Source: Bacteroidales bacterium (GTDB taxonomy: Bacteria; Bacteroidota; Bacteroidia; Bacteroidales; UBA932). From it: a DNA stretch of 34,192 nt. Location of the stretch: the NCBI GenBank assembly GCA_017443845.1, contig JAFSXX010000018.1:1-34192 (forward strand). The letters run 5' to 3'. The translations under genes and the position numbers were made by a program. The stretch's first letter is position 1. Each line of letters opens with the position of its first letter. The notes under the pieces were generated by a model. It had not been told where the DNA came from. It made no database searches and worked only from the letters and a program-made list of their open reading frames with translations. This document shows, in pieces, positions 27,330 through 34,192 of this stretch.

Positions 27330-29348
27330 CTACTTCAAACCGCGTGCCCTCAGCAATGCGTCGGGGTCGGGTTCCGCGCCGCGGAAAGCCTTGTAAAGCA
27401 CCATAGGGTCCTCGCTGCCGCCCTTCTCGAGGATGTTCTCCTTGAAACTCTTCGCGGTGGCGGGATCGAAGATGCCCTTCTCCATGAAGAGTTCGAAAGC
27501 ATCCTTGTCGAGCACCTCGGCCCAGAGGTAGCTGTAGTAGCCGGCGCTGTAGCCGCTGTTGAAGATATGGTTGAAGTAGGTGGTCCGGTAGCGGGGGATT
27601 ATCTCGCCGATGAGGCCCATCTCTTCGCAGGCCTTCTTCTCGAACGCTTCAACGTCGATGCCTTCGACAGATGAGAGCTCGTGCCACTTCATATCGAGGA
27701 TCGAAGCCGCGCAGAGCTCGGTGGTCATGAAGCCCTGGTTGAAGTTGCCGGCTGCGATGATCTTCTCCACGAGTTCGTCGGGAATGACCTCGCCGGTCTC
27801 GTAGTGCTTGGCATAACCTGCGAGAACCTCCTTCTGGAATGCCCAGTTCTCATTGATCTGCGAGGGGAGCTCCACGAAGTCGCGGGCTACGGCGGTGCCG
27901 CTGACAGTGCGGTAATGGCACTGGGTGAGGAGTCCGTGGAGGGCGTGGCCGAATTCGTGGAACATTGTCTCCACGTTGTCGAGGCTCAGGAGCGAGGGCT
28001 TGTCGGCGGTGGGCTTGTTGAAGTTGCCCACATTGACTATGATCGGGCGGACCATCGTGCCGTCGGCGGTGACATATTCGTCGCGGATGTTGTTCATCCA
28101 GGCACCGCCCCTCTTGCTCTCGCGGGGGAAGTAGTCGGTGGTGAGGATTCCGATGAGCGAGCCGTCGGCTGCGTTGGTCACCTTGAAGGCCTCCACGTCG
28201 GGGTGATAGACGGGAGCGTTCTCAATCTTCTCGAATTTGAGTCCGTAAAGCTTGGCCGCAGTGTTGAATACGCCTTCGCGGACGTTTTCCATCTTGAAGT
28301 AGGGCTTCACCTGCTCCTCGTCGAGGTCATATTTGGCCTTGCGAACCTTCTCGGCATAGTAGAACCAGTCCCAGGGCTCGATCTTGCTGCCTGCGGGGAG
28401 TTTGCCGGCCTTGATGTCGTCGTCCATAACGAGCTGCATGTCGATGACCTCTTTCTTGGCCTGGGCGACCGCATATTTGAAGATATTCTCCAGGAATGCG
28501 TCCACAGCGGCGGGGGTCTTCGCCATCTTGTCGCTGAGGATCCAGGCTGCAGGGTTGTCATAGCCGAGCAGTTTGGCCTTCTCCTCCTTGAGGGTCAGGA
28601 TGCGGAGAAGGGTCTCCTTCGTGTCGTTCTCATTGCCGTTGTTGCCACGGTTGGAGTATGCGCGGAACATCTCCTCGCGTTTTGCGCGGTCCTCCTCGGT
28701 GGTCATCGCGCCGGTGTATTCGGAGATGGCGACGCCGAATTTCGCCTTGAAGGCGTTGTTCTCCTTGAGCAGCATATTGCCGAATTTGTTGGAGAGGGTG
28801 GAGAGTTCGGTGTTGATCTCCTTCATACGCGCCTGGCCGGCCTCGTCGAGGGCGATGCCGTTGTCGGCGAACGAGCGGTAAACCTTGTCGAGTACCATCT
28901 CCTGCTCGCGGGTGAGTCCGAGACCCTCCTTGGCGTTGTTGACGGCCTCGACCTTGGCGAAGAGGGCCTTGTTGAAGATTATCTCATTCTCGTGCTGCGA
29001 GAGCATCGTAGTGGCGTCGTCCACTATCTTCTCGAGGGTAGGGGTGATGTCGGTCTCTGCGAGGTTGAACAGGACGCCGGAGACTTTGGCCAGAAGGCCG
29101 CCCGAGAGGTCGTAGGCTCCGATGACGTTGTCGAATGTGGGAGCCTCGGGATTGTTGACGATAGCTTCGATTTCAGCGTTGTGCTGCTTGATTCCCTCCT
29201 CGATGGCAGGGATGTAATGCGCCTCCTTGATCTGATCGAAAGGAGGAATTCCGTAAGGGGTGTCCCATTCCGCGAGGAAGGGATTTGTCTTTGTACACGA
29301 TGTCATAAGCATGGCTGCGAATGCCAGGATTGCAAAAAGTCGTTTCAT
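27330..29348 (-). CDS. M3 family metallopeptidase lipoprotein (Dcp/oligopeptidase A-like)
   Basis: A 672-residue zinc metallopeptidase with a lipoprotein signal (MKRLFAILAFAAMLMTSC, Cys18), so it is exported and probably acts in the periplasm or at the inner face of the outer membrane. The M3 active site is HEFGHALH with zinc ligands His464 and His468, catalytic Glu465 and third ligand Glu493 (FVELPSQINENW). A long helical N-terminal half (about 30-400) forms the usual cover over the cleft. The family includes dipeptidyl carboxypeptidase and oligopeptidase A, which cut short peptides; lipidation is common in Bacteroidetes homologues. It heads the probable operon with murA and murB, which suggests but does not prove a link to peptide recycling from the cell wall. 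Confidence 0.93.
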   Translation of the reverse strand: MKRLFAILAFAAMLMTSCTKTNPFLAEWDTPYGIPPFDQIKEAHYIPAIEEGIKQHNAEIEAIVNNPEAPTFDNVIGAYDLSGGLLAKVSGVLFNLAETDITPTLEKIVDDATTMLSQHENEIIFNKALFAKVEAVNNAKEGLGLTREQEMVLDKVYRSFADNGIALDEAGQARMKEINTELSTLSNKFGNMLLKENNAFKAKFGVAISEYTGAMTTEEDRAKREEMFRAYSNRGNNGNENDTKETLLRILTLKEEKAKLLGYDNPAAWILSDKMAKTPAAVDAFLENIFKYAVAQAKKEVIDMQLVMDDDIKAGKLPAGSKIEPWDWFYYAEKVRKAKYDLDEEQVKPYFKMENVREGVFNTAAKLYGLKFEKIENAPVYHPDVEAFKVTNAADGSLIGILTTDYFPRESKRGGAWMNNIRDEYVTADGTMVRPIIVNVGNFNKPTADKPSLLSLDNVETMFHEFGHALHGLLTQCHYRTVSGTAVARDFVELPSQINENWAFQKEVLAGYAKHYETGEVIPDELVEKIIAAGNFNQGFMTTELCAASILDMKWHELSSVEGIDVEAFEKKACEEMGLIGEIIPRYRTTYFNHIFNSGYSAGYYSYLWAEVLDKDAFELFMEKGIFDPATAKSFKENILEKGGSEDPMVLYKAFRGAEPDPDALLRARGLK

Positions 29349-29388
29349 ATCTGATGATTGATTTGTTTCAAACTGGTATTGTAATTTA

Positions 29389-29422
29389 CAAATTTACAAC
29401 TTTTTTGCTTGCCTGCCCCAAA
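29389..29422 (-). promoter_or_regulatory. Promoter of the M3 peptidase-murA-murB operon
   Basis: On the minus strand TTTG (29422-29419), a 22-nt gap, then TAAATTTG (29396-29389), about 40 nt upstream of the start codon at 29348. Confidence 0.55.
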
Positions 29423-29470
29423 TAATCTGGTGCATCTGTTTCGGGGTGCTTTTTGGGGATGGTGGCCTTC

Positions 29471-29572
29471 TGGTTCGGGATACATTTCGTGGCTGATGAT
29501 CGTCTGGTTCGGGATGCTATTCTGGGCCGATGATCGTTTGGTTCGGGATACTTCTCAGCGCCTGTGAGCTTC
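29471..29572. repeat. 34-nt tandem repeat, three units
   Basis: TGGTTCGGGA recurs at 29471, 29505 and 29539, an exact 34-nt period; the second halves (for example GATGATCG) match between units one and two and diverge in the third. The period is not a multiple of three and no gene covers it. It is the first part of a 717-bp gene-free stretch (29401-30117). Confidence 0.8.
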
Positions 29573-29599
29573 TGCTTCTGCGTAAAAACTATTGGCAGC

Positions 29600-29710
29600 C
29601 CGTGGAGGTTGATCCGCTGAGACTTATCGATTTAGTAAAAACAACCTCTGTGTTTGGGTAGGGGTTGTTTTCAGCATCTCGCTGACAATTAGCCTTTTAG
29701 CTTCCACAGC
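29600..29710. repeat. RAYT-type palindrome, copy A
   Basis: Outer arms GTGGA (29602-29606) and TCCAC (29703-29707); inner stem AAAACAACC (29638-29646) with GGTTGTTTT (29663-29671). Its right half, 29661-29707, is identical over 47 nt to copy B. The overall plan matches copies B to E. Confidence 0.8.
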
Positions 29711-29713
29711 CTT

Positions 29714-29914
29714 CTGGCTTCGGTGCCTACTCTCCGCGCCTTCCCTCCGCGCCTGGGCTTTCGCGCTTATCTTTTGCGGCTGGACTTTGGTGTCTACCCT
29801 CGATGGCCGGGCTTTAACGCCTTCCCTTTGTGGCCGGATTTTGACGCTTATCCTCTGTGGTTAGCGGCCTATGCTGTATATTCTATTATCGGCCCGTGGA
29901 GGCTAACACCCTGA
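29714..29914 (+). repeat. 27-nt tandem repeat within a 63-codon open frame
   Basis: Four adjacent units start at 29753, 29780, 29807 and 29834 (CTGGGCTTT, CTGGACTTT, CCGGGCTTT, CCGGATTTT), exactly 27 nt apart, with a related fifth unit near 29714. An open frame from ATG 29723 to 29914 reads the units as nine-residue repeats: LGFRAYLLR, LDFGVYPRW, PGFNAFPLW, PDFDAYPLW. Phe at position 3 and an aromatic at position 6 are kept. There is no evident promoter or ribosome site, so coding is doubtful. Confidence 0.7.
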
Positions 29915-30005
29915 TGCTTAGCGAGTTTATGAAAACAACCCCTGCATCTGGTCAGGGGTTGTTTTCAGCATCTCGCTGACAATTAGCCTTTTAGCTTCCA
30001 CGGCC
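29891..30005. repeat. RAYT-type palindrome, copy B
   Basis: Outer arms CCGTGGA (29894-29900) and TCCACGG (29997-30003); inner perfect 14-bp stem GAAAACAACCCCTG (29931-29944) with CAGGGGTTGTTTTC (29953-29966), 8-nt loop. It lies 112 nt beyond the stop of the COG0523 gene. The remaining bases up to 30117 hold only degraded GC-rich repeat-like sequence and no gene. Confidence 0.85.
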
Positions 30006-30117
30006 TGGCTCTGAATCCCACTCTCAGCGCTTATGCTTCGGCGCATACCCACCGCGGCAGCGCTTTGATTCTCAGGGCTTAAGTTTTGTCACCTGCCCTC
30101 GATGGCTGACGTTATTA

Positions 30118-31389
30118 CTACTTCTCCAGGCAGAAGTCGAGGCCGGCGGTGATGGCCTCCTTGTCGAGATGCTGGCCGATGAAGACTATTTTCTGCATGC
30201 GGTCGCCATAGACGGGGTCCCAGTCTTTCTGGAGGCCCTTGTCCCAGGACATACGCTCACGGAGCTCCTCTTCGGGCATTGTGGCGTACCATAAGCCGGC
30301 GTCCTTGAGGGAGACCTGCTTGCCGGCCTGCTCGAAGATGAAGCAGGTGTCGGGCTCGTCCGTGAAGTAGCAGAGGCCTTTGGCGCGGATTACCTCGCGG
30401 GGCCATTTCTTGGCGATGAAGCTGTCGAATTTGTTCATATCGAAGGCTTCGCGGCGATAATATACGAATGTGCCGATGCCGTACTCCTCAGCCTCGCCTT
30501 CATCGTGATGATGGTGATGGTGGTGGCCGTCGTGCCCGTGCTCTTCGTGCTCATGCTCATGCTCATGCTCGTGGCCGTGATGCCCGTGCTCCCCGTCGTG
30601 ATCGTGATCATCGTCGTCATCATCATCTTCCTCTTCCGCCTCCTCATTTTCGTGCTTTTCGATCTCACCGAGCCAGGAGGCCGAGGTGATGACGTCGTCG
30701 AAGTCGAACATTCCGGTGCCCACGAGGCGGTCGAGGTCCACGTCGCAATAGTCGCATTCGATGATCTCGGCCTTGGAATTCAAAGCCCTGACGATCTCCC
30801 TGATGCGTGAAAGCTCCTCCGGGGAGACTCCCGAAGCCTTGTTGAGCAGCACGATGTTGCAGAACTCTATCTGCTGGATCACCAGCGATTTGATATCCTC
30901 CTCGTCGAAATGGCCGCCGAGCAGGTCGTTGCCGCAGGCGAACTCGTCCTGCATGCGGATGGCATCCACCACCGTCACTATGCAGTCCATCACCGGCACG
31001 TCGCCGCCGGAAAGCATCTGGGGATATACCGAGGGAATCGAGCAGATGGTCTGGGCGATAGGCTCGGGCTCGCAGATGCCGCTGGCCTCGATTACGATAT
31101 AATCGAACTTCTGCATCCTGGTGATGTCCGAAAGCTGCTGCACGAGATCCATCTTGAGGGTGCAGCAGATACACCCGTTCTGCAGGGCCACCAGGCTGTC
31201 GTCCTTCTGCCCCACGATACCGCCCTGCTGAATGAGGTCGGCGTCGATGTTTACTTCGCCTATATCGTTGACTATCACCGCAAAGCGGATACCTTTGCGG
31301 TTCGAGAGGATGCGGTTGAGCAGTGTGGTTTTGCCGCTGCCGAGGTAACCCGTAAGCAGCAATACGGGTATTTCATTGATTTCTTTCAT
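30118..31389 (-). CDS. COG0523/CobW-family metallochaperone GTPase with Asp/His-rich tract
   Basis: A 423-residue SIMIBI-class GTPase of the CobW/ZNG1/YeiR group, which delivers metals, usually zinc, to client proteins. Seen: Walker A GYLGSGKTT (14-22), the metal-binding CxCC in GCICC (Cys73, 75, 76), an EASGICEP switch (101-108), LLNKAS in place of NKxD (181-186) and a C-terminal CobW_C domain (about 304-423). Between the domains is a charged tract (246-302): a run of seven Asp, then 19 His within residues 262-295, including alternating HEHEHEHE and seven consecutive His. Such tracts bind zinc or other divalent metals. It lies 27 nt downstream of the CNNM-type gene on the same strand, so both may serve divalent-cation handling. 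Confidence 0.92.
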   Translation of the reverse strand: MKEINEIPVLLLTGYLGSGKTTLLNRILSNRKGIRFAVIVNDIGEVNIDADLIQQGGIVGQKDDSLVALQNGCICCTLKMDLVQQLSDITRMQKFDYIVIEASGICEPEPIAQTICSIPSVYPQMLSGGDVPVMDCIVTVVDAIRMQDEFACGNDLLGGHFDEEDIKSLVIQQIEFCNIVLLNKASGVSPEELSRIREIVRALNSKAEIIECDYCDVDLDRLVGTGMFDFDDVITSASWLGEIEKHENEEAEEEDDDDDDDHDHDGEHGHHGHEHEHEHEHEEHGHDGHHHHHHHDEGEAEEYGIGTFVYYRREAFDMNKFDSFIAKKWPREVIRAKGLCYFTDEPDTCFIFEQAGKQVSLKDAGLWYATMPEEELRERMSWDKGLQKDWDPVYGDRMQKIVFIGQHLDKEAITAGLDFCLEK

Positions 31390-31416
31390 CTTGGATAGAA
31401 TTATTAAAAGTCGCTG

Positions 31417-32448
31417 TCAGTCCTTCTTCTGCTTATTCCAGCGCTCGCGGGCCAGGGCCTGCATATCGGGGACTATGTCGTTCTCGTCAACGATTTCGGA
31501 GCCGAGAAGGGTTTCTATGATATCTTCCATCGTGAGGATGCCCTGGAAGGCGCCATACTCGTCGATGATGCAGGCGATCTGCTCGTTCTTGGAGAGCATC
31601 TCGTCCCATATCTTGCCAAGGGGGGTCTCCTCGTTATAGAGTTCCACGTCGCGGCGGATGGAGCCCAGCGTACGGTCGAACTTGTCGTCGGCCAGCAGCT
31701 GAAGCGCATCCATCCGGAGGATATATCCCGTGATATATTCGTCGCTCTCGCCATAGACCGGGATGCGGCTGTGGTGGCGGTACTCCTTGCTGCGGTAGAA
31801 CGACTTGACGGTCATCGACTCCGGCGCTATGGCGCACACCACGCGCGGGGTCATCGCCTGGTAGGCGGGGATGTCGTCCATCTTGAAGAGATTCTGGATT
31901 ACGGCGTTCTCGTCCTCGTCGATTTCCTCCTCTTCTTCGGCCACATTGGCCATCGCGCTCACCTCCTCGCGGGATACCGAGACTTCGTCCTCATCGGGAT
32001 GCGAGATCGACTTCGAGAGCCACTCAAAGACTATGACGAAGGGATAGAGCACCACCACGAGCACATTCAGACACCTGGTCGTGAAGCCCATAAGATGCTT
32101 CCACTGGGTGGTTCCGATGGTCTTGGGGATAATCTCCGAGAAGACGAGGATAAGGATGGTGGTGACGACGCTCACCAGGCCGAACCACTGACTGCCGAAG
32201 AGGAGCGTGGCCTGCCGGCCGACGCCCGCCGCTCCGATGGTGTTGGCGATGGTGTTGAGGCTCAGGATGGCCGCGATCGGCCTGCCGGACTCCTGCTTGA
32301 ACTGCCTGAAACGGGCCGCCGGTTTATACCCTTCCTCCTCCTTCATCGAGATGAAGGAGATCGGCGTGGACATCAGTGTGGCCTCCAGGATTGAACAGAG
32401 GAACGAGATGGACATCGCCCCGAGCAGGAATACGAGCAACAGAGTCAT
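31417..32448 (-). CDS. CNNM/CorC-type membrane protein with CBS pair
   Basis: A 343-residue inner-membrane protein. The N-terminal CNNM (DUF21) domain (about 1-145) has the expected membrane segments (MTLLLVFLLGAMSISFLCSILEA, GLVSVVTTILILVFSEIIPKTIG with the conserved SE-x-x-PK motif, CLNVLVVVLYPFVIVFEWL). After an acidic linker (EEEEEIDEDENAV) comes a CBS pair (about 195-320: MTPRVVCAIAPESMTV, HSRIPVYGES, IACIIDEYGAFQGILTMEDIIETLLGSEIVDE). It stops soon after and lacks the C-terminal CorC/HlyC domain of longer relatives. Family members export or sense magnesium and other divalent ions. The downstream COG0523 gene fits a shared metal theme. Its -7 promoter element lies only 8 nt from the ATG. 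Confidence 0.9.
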   Translation of the reverse strand: MTLLLVFLLGAMSISFLCSILEATLMSTPISFISMKEEEGYKPAARFRQFKQESGRPIAAILSLNTIANTIGAAGVGRQATLLFGSQWFGLVSVVTTILILVFSEIIPKTIGTTQWKHLMGFTTRCLNVLVVVLYPFVIVFEWLSKSISHPDEDEVSVSREEVSAMANVAEEEEEIDEDENAVIQNLFKMDDIPAYQAMTPRVVCAIAPESMTVKSFYRSKEYRHHSRIPVYGESDEYITGYILRMDALQLLADDKFDRTLGSIRRDVELYNEETPLGKIWDEMLSKNEQIACIIDEYGAFQGILTMEDIIETLLGSEIVDENDIVPDMQALARERWNKQKKD

Positions 32449-32456
32449 AGTCGGTG

Positions 32457-32464
32457 CAAAGGTA
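32457..32464 (-). promoter_or_regulatory. -7 element for the CNNM-COG0523 operon
   Basis: Minus-strand TACCTTTG (followed by C) ends 8 nt before the start codon at 32448. The family start is well fixed, so the transcript may be nearly leaderless. The expected -33 position abuts the palindrome that begins at 32489; no clear TTG was found. Confidence 0.5.
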
Positions 32465-32488
32465 GCATTTTTTTATATTAGTTGATGT

Positions 32489-32594
32489 GTGGAGGCTTAT
32501 CGCTTGGCGTTTAATGAATTACTGGAAACAACCTCCCCGAAATTCACGGGGTTGTTTTCAGGAAGTAGCTGTCAATCAATGGCCAAGCCTCCAC
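32489..32594. repeat. RAYT-type palindrome, copy C
   Basis: Outer 10-bp arms GTGGAGGCTT (32489-32498) and AAGCCTCCAC (32585-32594); inner stem AAACAACC (32526-32533) with GGTTGTTT (32550-32557), with further CCCCG/CGGGG pairing after a bulge. It sits between the CNNM promoter and copy D. Confidence 0.85.
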
Positions 32595-32650
32595 GCTCGC
32601 TGGCGGGTTCTGTCTGCTAAGATTGGAGAATGGTTTCACTGGATCTCGTC

Positions 32651-32758
32651 CGTGGAGGCCAACTCGCTTAAGGTTAGTTACTTTCTGAAAACAACCTCCT
32701 CGCAGAAAGGGAGGTTGTTTTCAGCAAAACGCAGAATATCAATCATTTCATCTCCACG
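32651..32758. repeat. RAYT-type palindrome, copy D
   Basis: Outer arms CGTGGAG (32651-32657) and CTCCACG (32752-32758); inner perfect 15-bp stem CTGAAAACAACCTCC (32685-32699) with GGAGGTTGTTTTCAG (32710-32724), 10-nt loop. It ends 8 nt from the stop codon of the transposase gene. Confidence 0.9.
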
Positions 32759-32766
32759 TAAACAGT

Positions 32767-33699
32767 CTATCTCCCGACGGGACTGTATTCGAGATGCAGA
32801 TATTTAGATACCTTCCTGTAGCCGGCACCAGTGTAGATGTCCAGGGGTTCCAGCAGTTCGATTCTTTTCTGAGGCGGCAGCCTCAGCATCTCCTCGACAC
32901 TGCCGGCCAGCTTTTTCTCTATCAGGAACTTTGTCATTTTTGCATAAATGAGGTCCGATCCCGAAACGAAATCCTCACGGATGTCGTACTCGCTGCCCTT
33001 GGCTGTATTGACTCCTGCAACCAAATCTGAATAATTGCCGAAATAACCCGCAGCAGTATCGTAATCGATACAGTTGTACTTAGATATGATGAAGTCGGTA
33101 AGCTGTTTCAATTCGCCCGGCCTCAGGTCTTTTGCCATCAGGGAAAGTTGGCTGTAACCGAGTGGCCTGTCCGCATCCCTCGTTATGGTTACTTCGCGGA
33201 CAGCCCTTCGCAACGGAGCGCTTGCCTCCCTCAATCTGAGGGGATCGGAGAACGGATGCCTGCTCTCCCCATAAGCCAGAAAATTCCATTGCGCCTCTTC
33301 CGGGCGCTTGCTCAACTGCTTCTCGACAGGATTATTCAGCAGATAGGCAATGGCGCTGCGGATATCCTTTGAGGAAACCTTTGATGCGAATCCGTATGTA
33401 GAGCGGAAGAATGGGCCCTTGCTTTCGTACCAGATGTTGTAAATCTGTGAAAACCAGGTAGTATAATGATGCACGAATCGGCTTAGTGCTGCCCGGTTGT
33501 CCGCCATCACCAATACATGGATATGGTCCGGCATAAGGCATAACCCGAGTATCTTTATCCCGTGAATCCGCGCAACAGTGGAAAACAGTGTAAAGAACAC
33601 AAGGTAATCCTTGATTGAATAAAAAATCAGAAAACCACAACAGGTGTTTTGATAAATGTGCTGAACAGCACCCGGCTTGAAAGAAATCCTTCCCTTCAT
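32767..33699 (-). CDS. REP-associated tyrosine transposase (RAYT), Y1/HUH type
   Basis: A 310-residue single-strand DNA transposase of the Y1_Tnp (IS200-like, TnpA-REP) group. The N-terminal domain (about 1-130) has LCLMPDHIHVLVMADN with the HUH pair His59 and His61, then a helix FVHHYTTWFSQIYN holding the candidate nucleophile Tyr79, and the family GPFFRSTYGFAS and RSAIAYLLNNPVE segments. A C-terminal extension (about 180-310) has helix-turn-helix character and probably binds DNA. The gene has no terminal repeats of an insertion sequence; instead it is bracketed by REP-like palindromes, copy D 8 nt past its stop and copy E 114 nt before its start. RAYTs are held to be domesticated transposases that act on such palindromes. 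It appears intact. Confidence 0.9.
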   Translation of the reverse strand: MKGRISFKPGAVQHIYQNTCCGFLIFYSIKDYLVFFTLFSTVARIHGIKILGLCLMPDHIHVLVMADNRAALSRFVHHYTTWFSQIYNIWYESKGPFFRSTYGFASKVSSKDIRSAIAYLLNNPVEKQLSKRPEEAQWNFLAYGESRHPFSDPLRLREASAPLRRAVREVTITRDADRPLGYSQLSLMAKDLRPGELKQLTDFIISKYNCIDYDTAAGYFGNYSDLVAGVNTAKGSEYDIREDFVSGSDLIYAKMTKFLIEKKLAGSVEEMLRLPPQKRIELLEPLDIYTGAGYRKVSKYLHLEYSPVGR

Positions 33700-33813
33700 A
33701 TCTCGTTCACTTTTTTGTCTGCTTCAAAGGAAGTAAATCTTAAGCAAAATAGCAAGAACTCTAATACCAAAAGTGACGAATCAGAAACAACAAGCGACGG
33801 AGCAGAAACGCCC

Positions 33814-33921
33814 CGTGGAGTGTAAATGTCGGATAATCAATTATTTGTTGAAAACAACCCCATTCAAATCCGAGGGGTTGTTTTCAGTAAACTACTTATA
33901 ATCAGACGATAAGCCTCCACG
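33814..33921. repeat. RAYT-type palindrome, copy E
   Basis: Outer arms CGTGGAG (33814-33820) and CTCCACG (33915-33921); inner perfect 12-bp stem GAAAACAACCCC (33850-33861) with GGGGTTGTTTTC (33874-33885), 12-nt loop. It lies upstream of the transposase start. The rest of 33700-34027 holds no gene. Confidence 0.9.
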
Positions 33922-34027
33922 CAAAAAACAATCAACGCCGCACCGTCGACTTTATGGGTGCCAAAAACTGTTTGTCAATAGTTTGACGTTGAAGGCTAAT
34001 CTCTTGATTATGAGCATCATAAACAAT

Positions 34028-34055
34028 AAAAGGTGCTCAAAATCGAGCACCTTTT
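34028..34055. terminator. Strong hairpin directly before the group II intron
   Basis: Perfect 11-bp stem AAAAGGTGCTC (34028-34038) with GAGCACCTTTT (34045-34055), 6-nt loop AAAATC. It has the form of a bidirectional intrinsic terminator. No gene in the window ends here; the relevant gene probably lies beyond the right edge. Confidence 0.75.
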
Positions 34056-34057
34056 AT

Positions 34058-34192
34058 GTTCGCCCAGCACGAACGTACTCTAACGGGTGCAAGTCCCCAA
34101 ACCGCCCTGATAGTGGGAAGGTTACAGCCAAAGGCAAGGGTGTCCATCGTGAGGTGGAATCTGAAGGAAGCCGGCGGCAAACGGTTGGCCCG
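34058..34192 (+). mobile_element. Group II intron, 5' part (cut by window edge)
   Basis: The last 135 bases have the look of the 5' end and domain I of a bacterial group II intron RNA: start GTTCGCCCAGCACG, the typical ACGGGTGCAAGTCCCC stretch, then AGCCAAAGGCAAGGGTG and CATCGTGAGGTGGAATCTGA, and AGGAAGCCGGCGGCAAAC. I recognise these from Bacteroidetes intron RNAs. The intron-encoded reverse transcriptase and domains V-VI would lie to the right of the window. The 5' boundary is placed at 34058 by similarity and is approximate. It begins 2 nt after a terminator-like hairpin. Confidence 0.72.

Follow-up and report, generated by a model that had tools for sequence, protein, structure and literature searches.

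The window analysed here, a 34,192-nucleotide (nt) stretch of Bacteroidales DNA (contig JAFSXX010000018.1 of assembly GCA_017443845.1), carries near its right end a Y1/HUH transposase gene set among long palindromes. Together these probably constitute a REPtron-type unit, in which a single-strand HUH/Y1 transposase resembling the RAYTs (REP-associated tyrosine transposases, REP being a repetitive extragenic palindrome) is accompanied by its own dispersed, non-autonomous palindrome family. What was computed comprises the gene and its predicted fold, a 108-nt unit with its structure and covariation, the copies of this unit with their sharp edges and their position between genes, and the correspondence between enzyme and element; from these we infer binding, cleavage, strand choice and movement. 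The enzyme would most likely recognise one strand of the unit, folded back while single-stranded, for example on the lagging-strand template. It would cut at or beside the outermost paired segments of the unit, its feet, where the conserved unit ends, and would join the unit elsewhere between genes, the unit spreading while the enzyme gene mostly stays in place.

The transposase and its palindromes

The gene (32767..33699, minus strand) is a 310-residue open reading frame (ORF) with an ATG start, and its product matches Pfam Y1_Tnp at 35.4 bits (cut-off 23; E 1.3e-8), bearing out the first-pass annotation, which had read an intact Y1/HUH transposase here. A HuH motif is found at residues 59-61 and the candidate catalytic tyrosine is Tyr119; His59, His61 and Tyr119 show no variation in 29 of 29 aligned homologues, all of which also match Y1_Tnp at E<=0.1. 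With its HuH motif, one catalytic tyrosine and an IS200-like predicted fold, the protein belongs to the Y1 HUH transposase superfamily. The best solved match to its predicted fold is a TnpAREP (PDB 4er8), and it lies nearer to TnpAREP than to the IS200/IS605 transposases. Sequence searches of the PDB gave no match for the single protein and weak matches for a profile of its homologues, and the C-terminal region, modelled alone, gave low confidence (predicted template-modelling score, pTM, 0.43) and no PDB match at E<=0.001. Relatives that carry names are mostly rumen or gut assemblies; the protein of one homologue, L036 from the same genus, does not differ from that of a Bacteroidales record (L051).

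Five palindromes, all given on the plus strand, are found in the window. Palindrome E (33814..33921) lies 114 nt upstream of the transposase start, D (32651..32758) ends 8 nt past its stop and C (32488..32595) lies beyond D, an arrangement already described in the first-pass annotation and confirmed by the coordinates. These three are putative substrates of the window enzyme, on the basis of their association with it and of the enzyme-element correspondence described below. Palindromes A (29601..29708) and B (29895..30002), an upstream cluster of the same family, lie ~2.6 kb to the left of C, and their stretches share 79% identity across about 150 nt. All five belong to the training set of the covariance model R1 described below, which they match at 4.5e-15 (A), 1.4e-17 (B), 2.3e-12 (C), 1.6e-16 (D) and 8.2e-17 (E). 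From foot end to foot end the window units measure 108 nt, with feet CGTGGAG/CTCCACG (C starts TGTGGAG) and inner stems AAAACAACC/GGTTGTTTT (C has GAAACAACC). As single-stranded DNA, four of the five fold better than dinucleotide shuffles, with z from -3.6 to -8.0 (B -7.95, E -4.89, D -4.45, C -3.56); A folds weakly (z -1.45), 13 of 200 shuffles folding equally well. An Rfam scan of 29000-34192 gave no family over its cut-off for the palindromes, and two microRNA matches below threshold, both to B's inner hairpin, were read as chance. Within 29582-30006, palindromes A and B stand in tandem at a distance of 294 nt, and the space between them includes an imperfect repeat stretch (29724-29860); adjoining A, at 29432-29551, are four 18-nt repeats of TCGTCTGGTTCGGGATGC type at an exact 34-nt spacing.

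Copies and anatomy of the unit

Across the genome of origin (G000; 2,055,367 bases in 57 contigs) the inner-stem pattern AAACAACC..GGTTGTTT was counted 14 times and a reversed control pattern not at all, more than chance would give. Feet are present at 13 of the 14; the other, C48:3852, is a different hairpin beside a group II intron and was excluded. These 13 elements and 29 found beside homologues elsewhere were used to build R1 (42 elements). The 29 remained from 40 flanking elements found by script, after removal of three already in the own set, five with misplaced feet (two at L030, two at L033, one at L034), two chance hairpins (L031, L032) and one near-duplicate (L025). Searched with R1, in line with the genome search suggested at the outset, the genome yields 20 places matching at E<1e-9, seven of them outside the training set and 15 outside the window; weak matches at C36:20641 and C35:3385 are not counted. 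All 20 carry the CGTGGAG foot with small variants, and their cores are of AAAACAACC type in 15, AAAGC[TC]ATCCCC in two, AATCAACC in two and TTTCCATCCC in one. The copies are mostly intergenic: by simple ORF calls, a single copy of the 20 has half or more of its length within an ORF (another reaches 49%), compared with 22,767 of 28,000 random 108-mers drawn from the same stretches.

The 42 training units align almost gap-free at 107-109 nt. The same half-site is found in both arms, running inward as foot, TAA, CTGA, TCAGC, TTA and core, and a TG near the left end and a CA near the right end are invariant (42/42). The share of paired cells is highest in the core (91.3%) and the foot helix (88.6%) and lower in the three middle helices (67-74%); each of the 12 core pairs has changes on both its sides. 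The earlier description of 'two-level' hairpins understates the units, because additional paired blocks are found between foot and core. For covariation, four of the five whole-structure measures are higher than in any of 500 shuffles.

Conservation ends at the feet, implying that the unit is discrete. Over four sets, information falls from 1.05-1.56 bits at the last foot base to 0.37-0.92 at +1 and 0.05-0.34 at +2; for the relative G067 this analysis used the 50 of 51 copies with full flanks, one copy with a variant left foot being sorted into the CTGCAA set. Just outside the unit G is somewhat preferred, and in the CTGCAA family an A-rich stretch is conserved at +3 to +6 (0.63 to 0.22). In two pairs of copies in the genome of origin, one homology edge lies near a foot. 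Homology between the C22 and C56 copies (L093, C22:35884-36201; L096, C56:75204-75500) has its left edge at the left foot and continues beyond the right foot for about 200 nt, at 73% identity, and that between two C52 copies extends from about 49 nt left of the unit to about 6 nt past it.

Enzyme and element among relatives

Homologues of the enzyme (E<1e-30) occur in 46 of 249 genomes of the family, some as partial matches, the next best genome scoring 4.9e-17. In a wide R1 search of these genomes, with the best 15 candidates at most scored per genome, a match at E<=0.01 was found in 44 of the 46 enzyme genomes and in 46 of the 203 others (p 4e-21). Training elements had come from 20 of the 46, with a few further rows from species possibly included; without the training genomes the counts are 24 of 26 against 46 of 203. 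Within the genus, elements are present in 18/18 enzyme genomes and 3/13 enzyme-less ones, and ten of the latter gave no R1 match even under laxer filters. A sample of 295 genomes from the order, including the genome of origin and at least three others of the family, gave R1 matches at 1e-6 (stricter filters) only in the genome of origin and in G408 (one place, 6.4e-9, another family), and enzyme-profile matches at 1e-20 only in the genome of origin and in G010 (same family, half-length matches). At the homologue loci themselves, a script located elements beside 27 of 35, with the feet misplaced at three of the 27, and inspection by eye added four more loci (L021, L036, L050, L051). A gene flanked by palindromes that have genome-wide copies, the arrangement by which RAYT/TnpAREP genes are recognised, is what is found here. 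The link between element and transposase proposed at first pass is seen as presence tracking presence, with exceptions. The proposal of a REP-like system tied to the window enzyme holds, in that neither of the outcomes set beforehand against it occurred, namely a lack of copies outside this region or, as judged by presence of elements, a lack of relation to the transposase among related genomes.

The sequences of foot and core go with the enzyme clade, enzyme and element changing together. G067 has 51 units: 18 with CTGCAA feet, all with TGA[TC]CCC cores; 16 with GTGGC feet, all with ATCGTGTGCG cores; and 17 with CTGGAG-type feet, of which 14 have TCGC[CT]C cores and three have others. No core of one class is paired with the feet of another, the core patterns having been written after inspection of the element list. 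Of its four homologues, that at C2:60584 has GTGGC-class units on both sides, that at C31:7025 has CTGCAA-class units on both sides and that at C1:53329 has CTGGAG units; the contig of the remaining one (C9:36584) shows none at E<1e-6. In G244 there are 22 units (seven GTGGC, seven CTGCAA, five CTGGAG and three GTGCA-like) and four enzymes, each of which adjoins one foot type, represented at the fourth enzyme by one divergent unit. When 36 homologues, 35 of them foot-labelled, are placed on a tree, foot class requires 10 changes (minimum 8), compared with a mean of 20.7 when shuffled and 0 of 200 shuffles as low. The tree was built quickly and includes several long branches and a few near-duplicates; its foot labels were assigned partly by eye, and L022, L024, L027, L042, L043 and L045 (foot unclear, internal stop or partial) are omitted.

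What might such an enzyme read in its elements? We offer tentatively, with a little less than even confidence, a two-part code of foot and hairpin core, read separately by each enzyme clade, in place of a fixed GTAG guide. The same tentative proposal would have this RAYT class largely family-restricted in Bacteroidales, its enzyme/element pairs coexisting unmixed in one genome and the symmetry of the unit perhaps sufficient for either strand to serve as substrate. Co-change of RAYT and repeat is hard to test where the guide tetranucleotide is nearly constant. Several enzyme/element pairs with differing feet and cores and equal unit length in one genome are a natural swap series, which bears on recognition, cross-activity, strand choice and the spread of repeats.

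Weighing the interpretations

A number of observations weigh against a REPtron-type system. The window protein scores 37.1 bits against NCBIfam NF047646, the REP-associated transposase equivalog, under its 80-bit cut-off. The genome of origin has four core types and one enzyme of the window class. On the fifth covariation measure the unit is not exceptional: pairs with changes on both sides number 28 against 25.0 in shuffles, a value reached by 43 of 500. R1 scores of the units are nearly equal on both strands, and known TnpAREPs act strand-specifically (PMC8266576). Some genomes keep good elements without a long enzyme. Matches in the 46 enzyme-less genomes include weak ones and strong ones (G052, G153, G091), and the strong ones imply either that the enzyme was lost while elements persisted or that it falls in assembly gaps. 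G052, which is 95% complete, has 17 places and only distant Y1 relatives (best 1.3e-13, profile), with no enzyme piece inside the 16 loci examined. Conversely, G031 and G181 each have a full-length enzyme and one weak place (7.6e-4 and 1.0e-5).

Direct evidence for movement is thin. It also weighs against the reading that no clean empty site was found at the sites aligned with relatives. At the one alignable element site of G244, G067 has unrelated sequence; at the C44 site, homology to the four relatives examined stops at least 64 nt short of the unit. The two genes neighbouring the C44 site occur together in no other listed genome; G231 alone matches both, with about 4 kb between them. The copies at C8:91134 and C9:24284 of G244, although identical, were set aside, since they share their flanks as well and so represent a duplication or an assembly repeat, uninformative on movement. 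A 3.4-kb block with one enzyme and two elements (L157 6542-9902 and L156; G067 C31 and G244 C11) is 94% identical between these genomes, compared with 80-88% for five other long aligned pieces, which suggests that it was transferred or converted between them.

That block would also suit a mobile transposon composed of E, the gene and D, whether IS200-like or a TIRtron, with the lone palindromes as its solo ends or as miniature inverted-repeat transposable elements, and palindromes do lie on both sides of homologues at several loci. We consider this unlikely: the genome of origin has one copy of the window gene and, besides it, only a distant Y1 gene (24% identity), the homologues within G067 and within G244, the two multi-enzyme genomes on the tree, fall in different clades rather than being near-copies, and the lone units are complete, two-footed elements, not single ends. 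Quite improbable, in our estimate, is that the palindromes are bidirectional transcription terminators or mRNA-end hairpins under selection, their proximity to the transposase being incidental. Their intergenic position would be expected of terminators, six of the 20 copies in the genome of origin start 2-29 nt downstream of a called ORF, and the G+C-rich core is preceded by A and followed by T; a terminator scan flags the cores of C and E, but not those of A, B and D. Left unexplained are the fixed 108-nt length, the feet, the middle blocks and the edges at the feet, as well as the link of foot and core to enzyme clade and the lack of any match in the ten enzyme-less genus members. A terminator role could coexist with cutting of the units by the enzyme or with their insertion polymorphism between strains. 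Finally, the symmetry might reflect two-fold binding of a dimeric protein to a double-stranded, operator-like site. The repeated half-site (foot, TAA, CTGA..TCAGC, TTA) would fit this, and covariation within an inverted repeat cannot tell a hairpin from a dimer site, but the inner stem is kept with quite different sequences among families, and studied relatives of the enzyme act on folded single strands (PMC8266576), making this very improbable.

Comparison with known systems

The system, from a family of Bacteroidales, is probably REPtron-type, and its architecture differs from that of GTAG-tagged REPs. In the E. coli REPtron (TnpAREP/RayT) the REPs are 20-40 nt and the protein has 165 residues, whereas here the units are near 108 nt, the feet vary (GTGGAG, CTGGAG, GTGGC, CTGCAA) and the protein has 310 residues. 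GTAG-tagged REPs are 20-40 bp with GT[AG]G at one end; the units here are 107-109 nt, and the foot holds GTGG in the genome of origin and CTGG, CTGC or GTGC in relatives. The REPINs of Pseudomonas are symmetric doublets of about 100 nt made of two inverted REPs with a cognate RAYT, features shared by the units here; they have one hairpin per half, in contrast to the strong central hairpin common to both halves here. The contrast with 20-40-nt REPs drawn at first pass is apt only in part, closer comparisons being REP doublets and the long REPs with a 'double foot' (PMC6006769).

These last, from TnpAREP subclass 2.4 (PMC6006769), likewise have a foot and its reverse complement at opposite ends, and the GTGG of the own-genome foot fits their GT[AG]G; in relatives, however, CTGG, CTGC or GTGC is often found in the foot, the WQ motif listed for that subclass is not conserved here and the protein is longer. 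In one MAFFT alignment with E. coli TnpAREP, W94 aligns with F and Q95 with variable residues, the roles of these residues being taken from PMC6006769 and PMC8266576. Subclass 2.6 (RAYT group 5) comes from the same phylum, and earlier work had recorded 'atypical secondary structures' that flank its genes and recur at other places in the genome (PMC6006769). That subclass is given as 179, which we read as protein length, with WQ and YIH[QN]NP, compared with 310 residues, F replacing W and mostly Y[LV]xNNP here. W and Q are not conserved among our homologues, the published subclass signatures being consensus strings. The architecture described here can now be set beside those atypical structures of Bacteroidetes RAYTs. 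TIRtrons also combine a Y1 transposase gene (TIRYT) with flanking repeats that have genomic copies, but their repeats are terminal inverted repeats around the gene, whereas each flank here is a complete palindrome (PMC3733652).

Neighbouring elements

A group II intron, cut off by the contig end so that its 5' part is present, occupies the right end of the window (34053-34192; Rfam RF02001 matches at 34143-34192 with 40.8 bits). A 140-nt copy of this stretch, 99% identical, is found on contig C48 (L104), and each of the two comes immediately after a strong hairpin, as though insertion had taken place behind terminators. Downstream of the distant Y1 gene of the genome of origin (L016, C52:6305-6664) runs a tandem array of hairpins, six of them spaced exactly 52 nt apart (TGGGACGACGGCGACAC...GTCGTCGTCCCA), which may represent a further repeat family served by an enzyme of its own.
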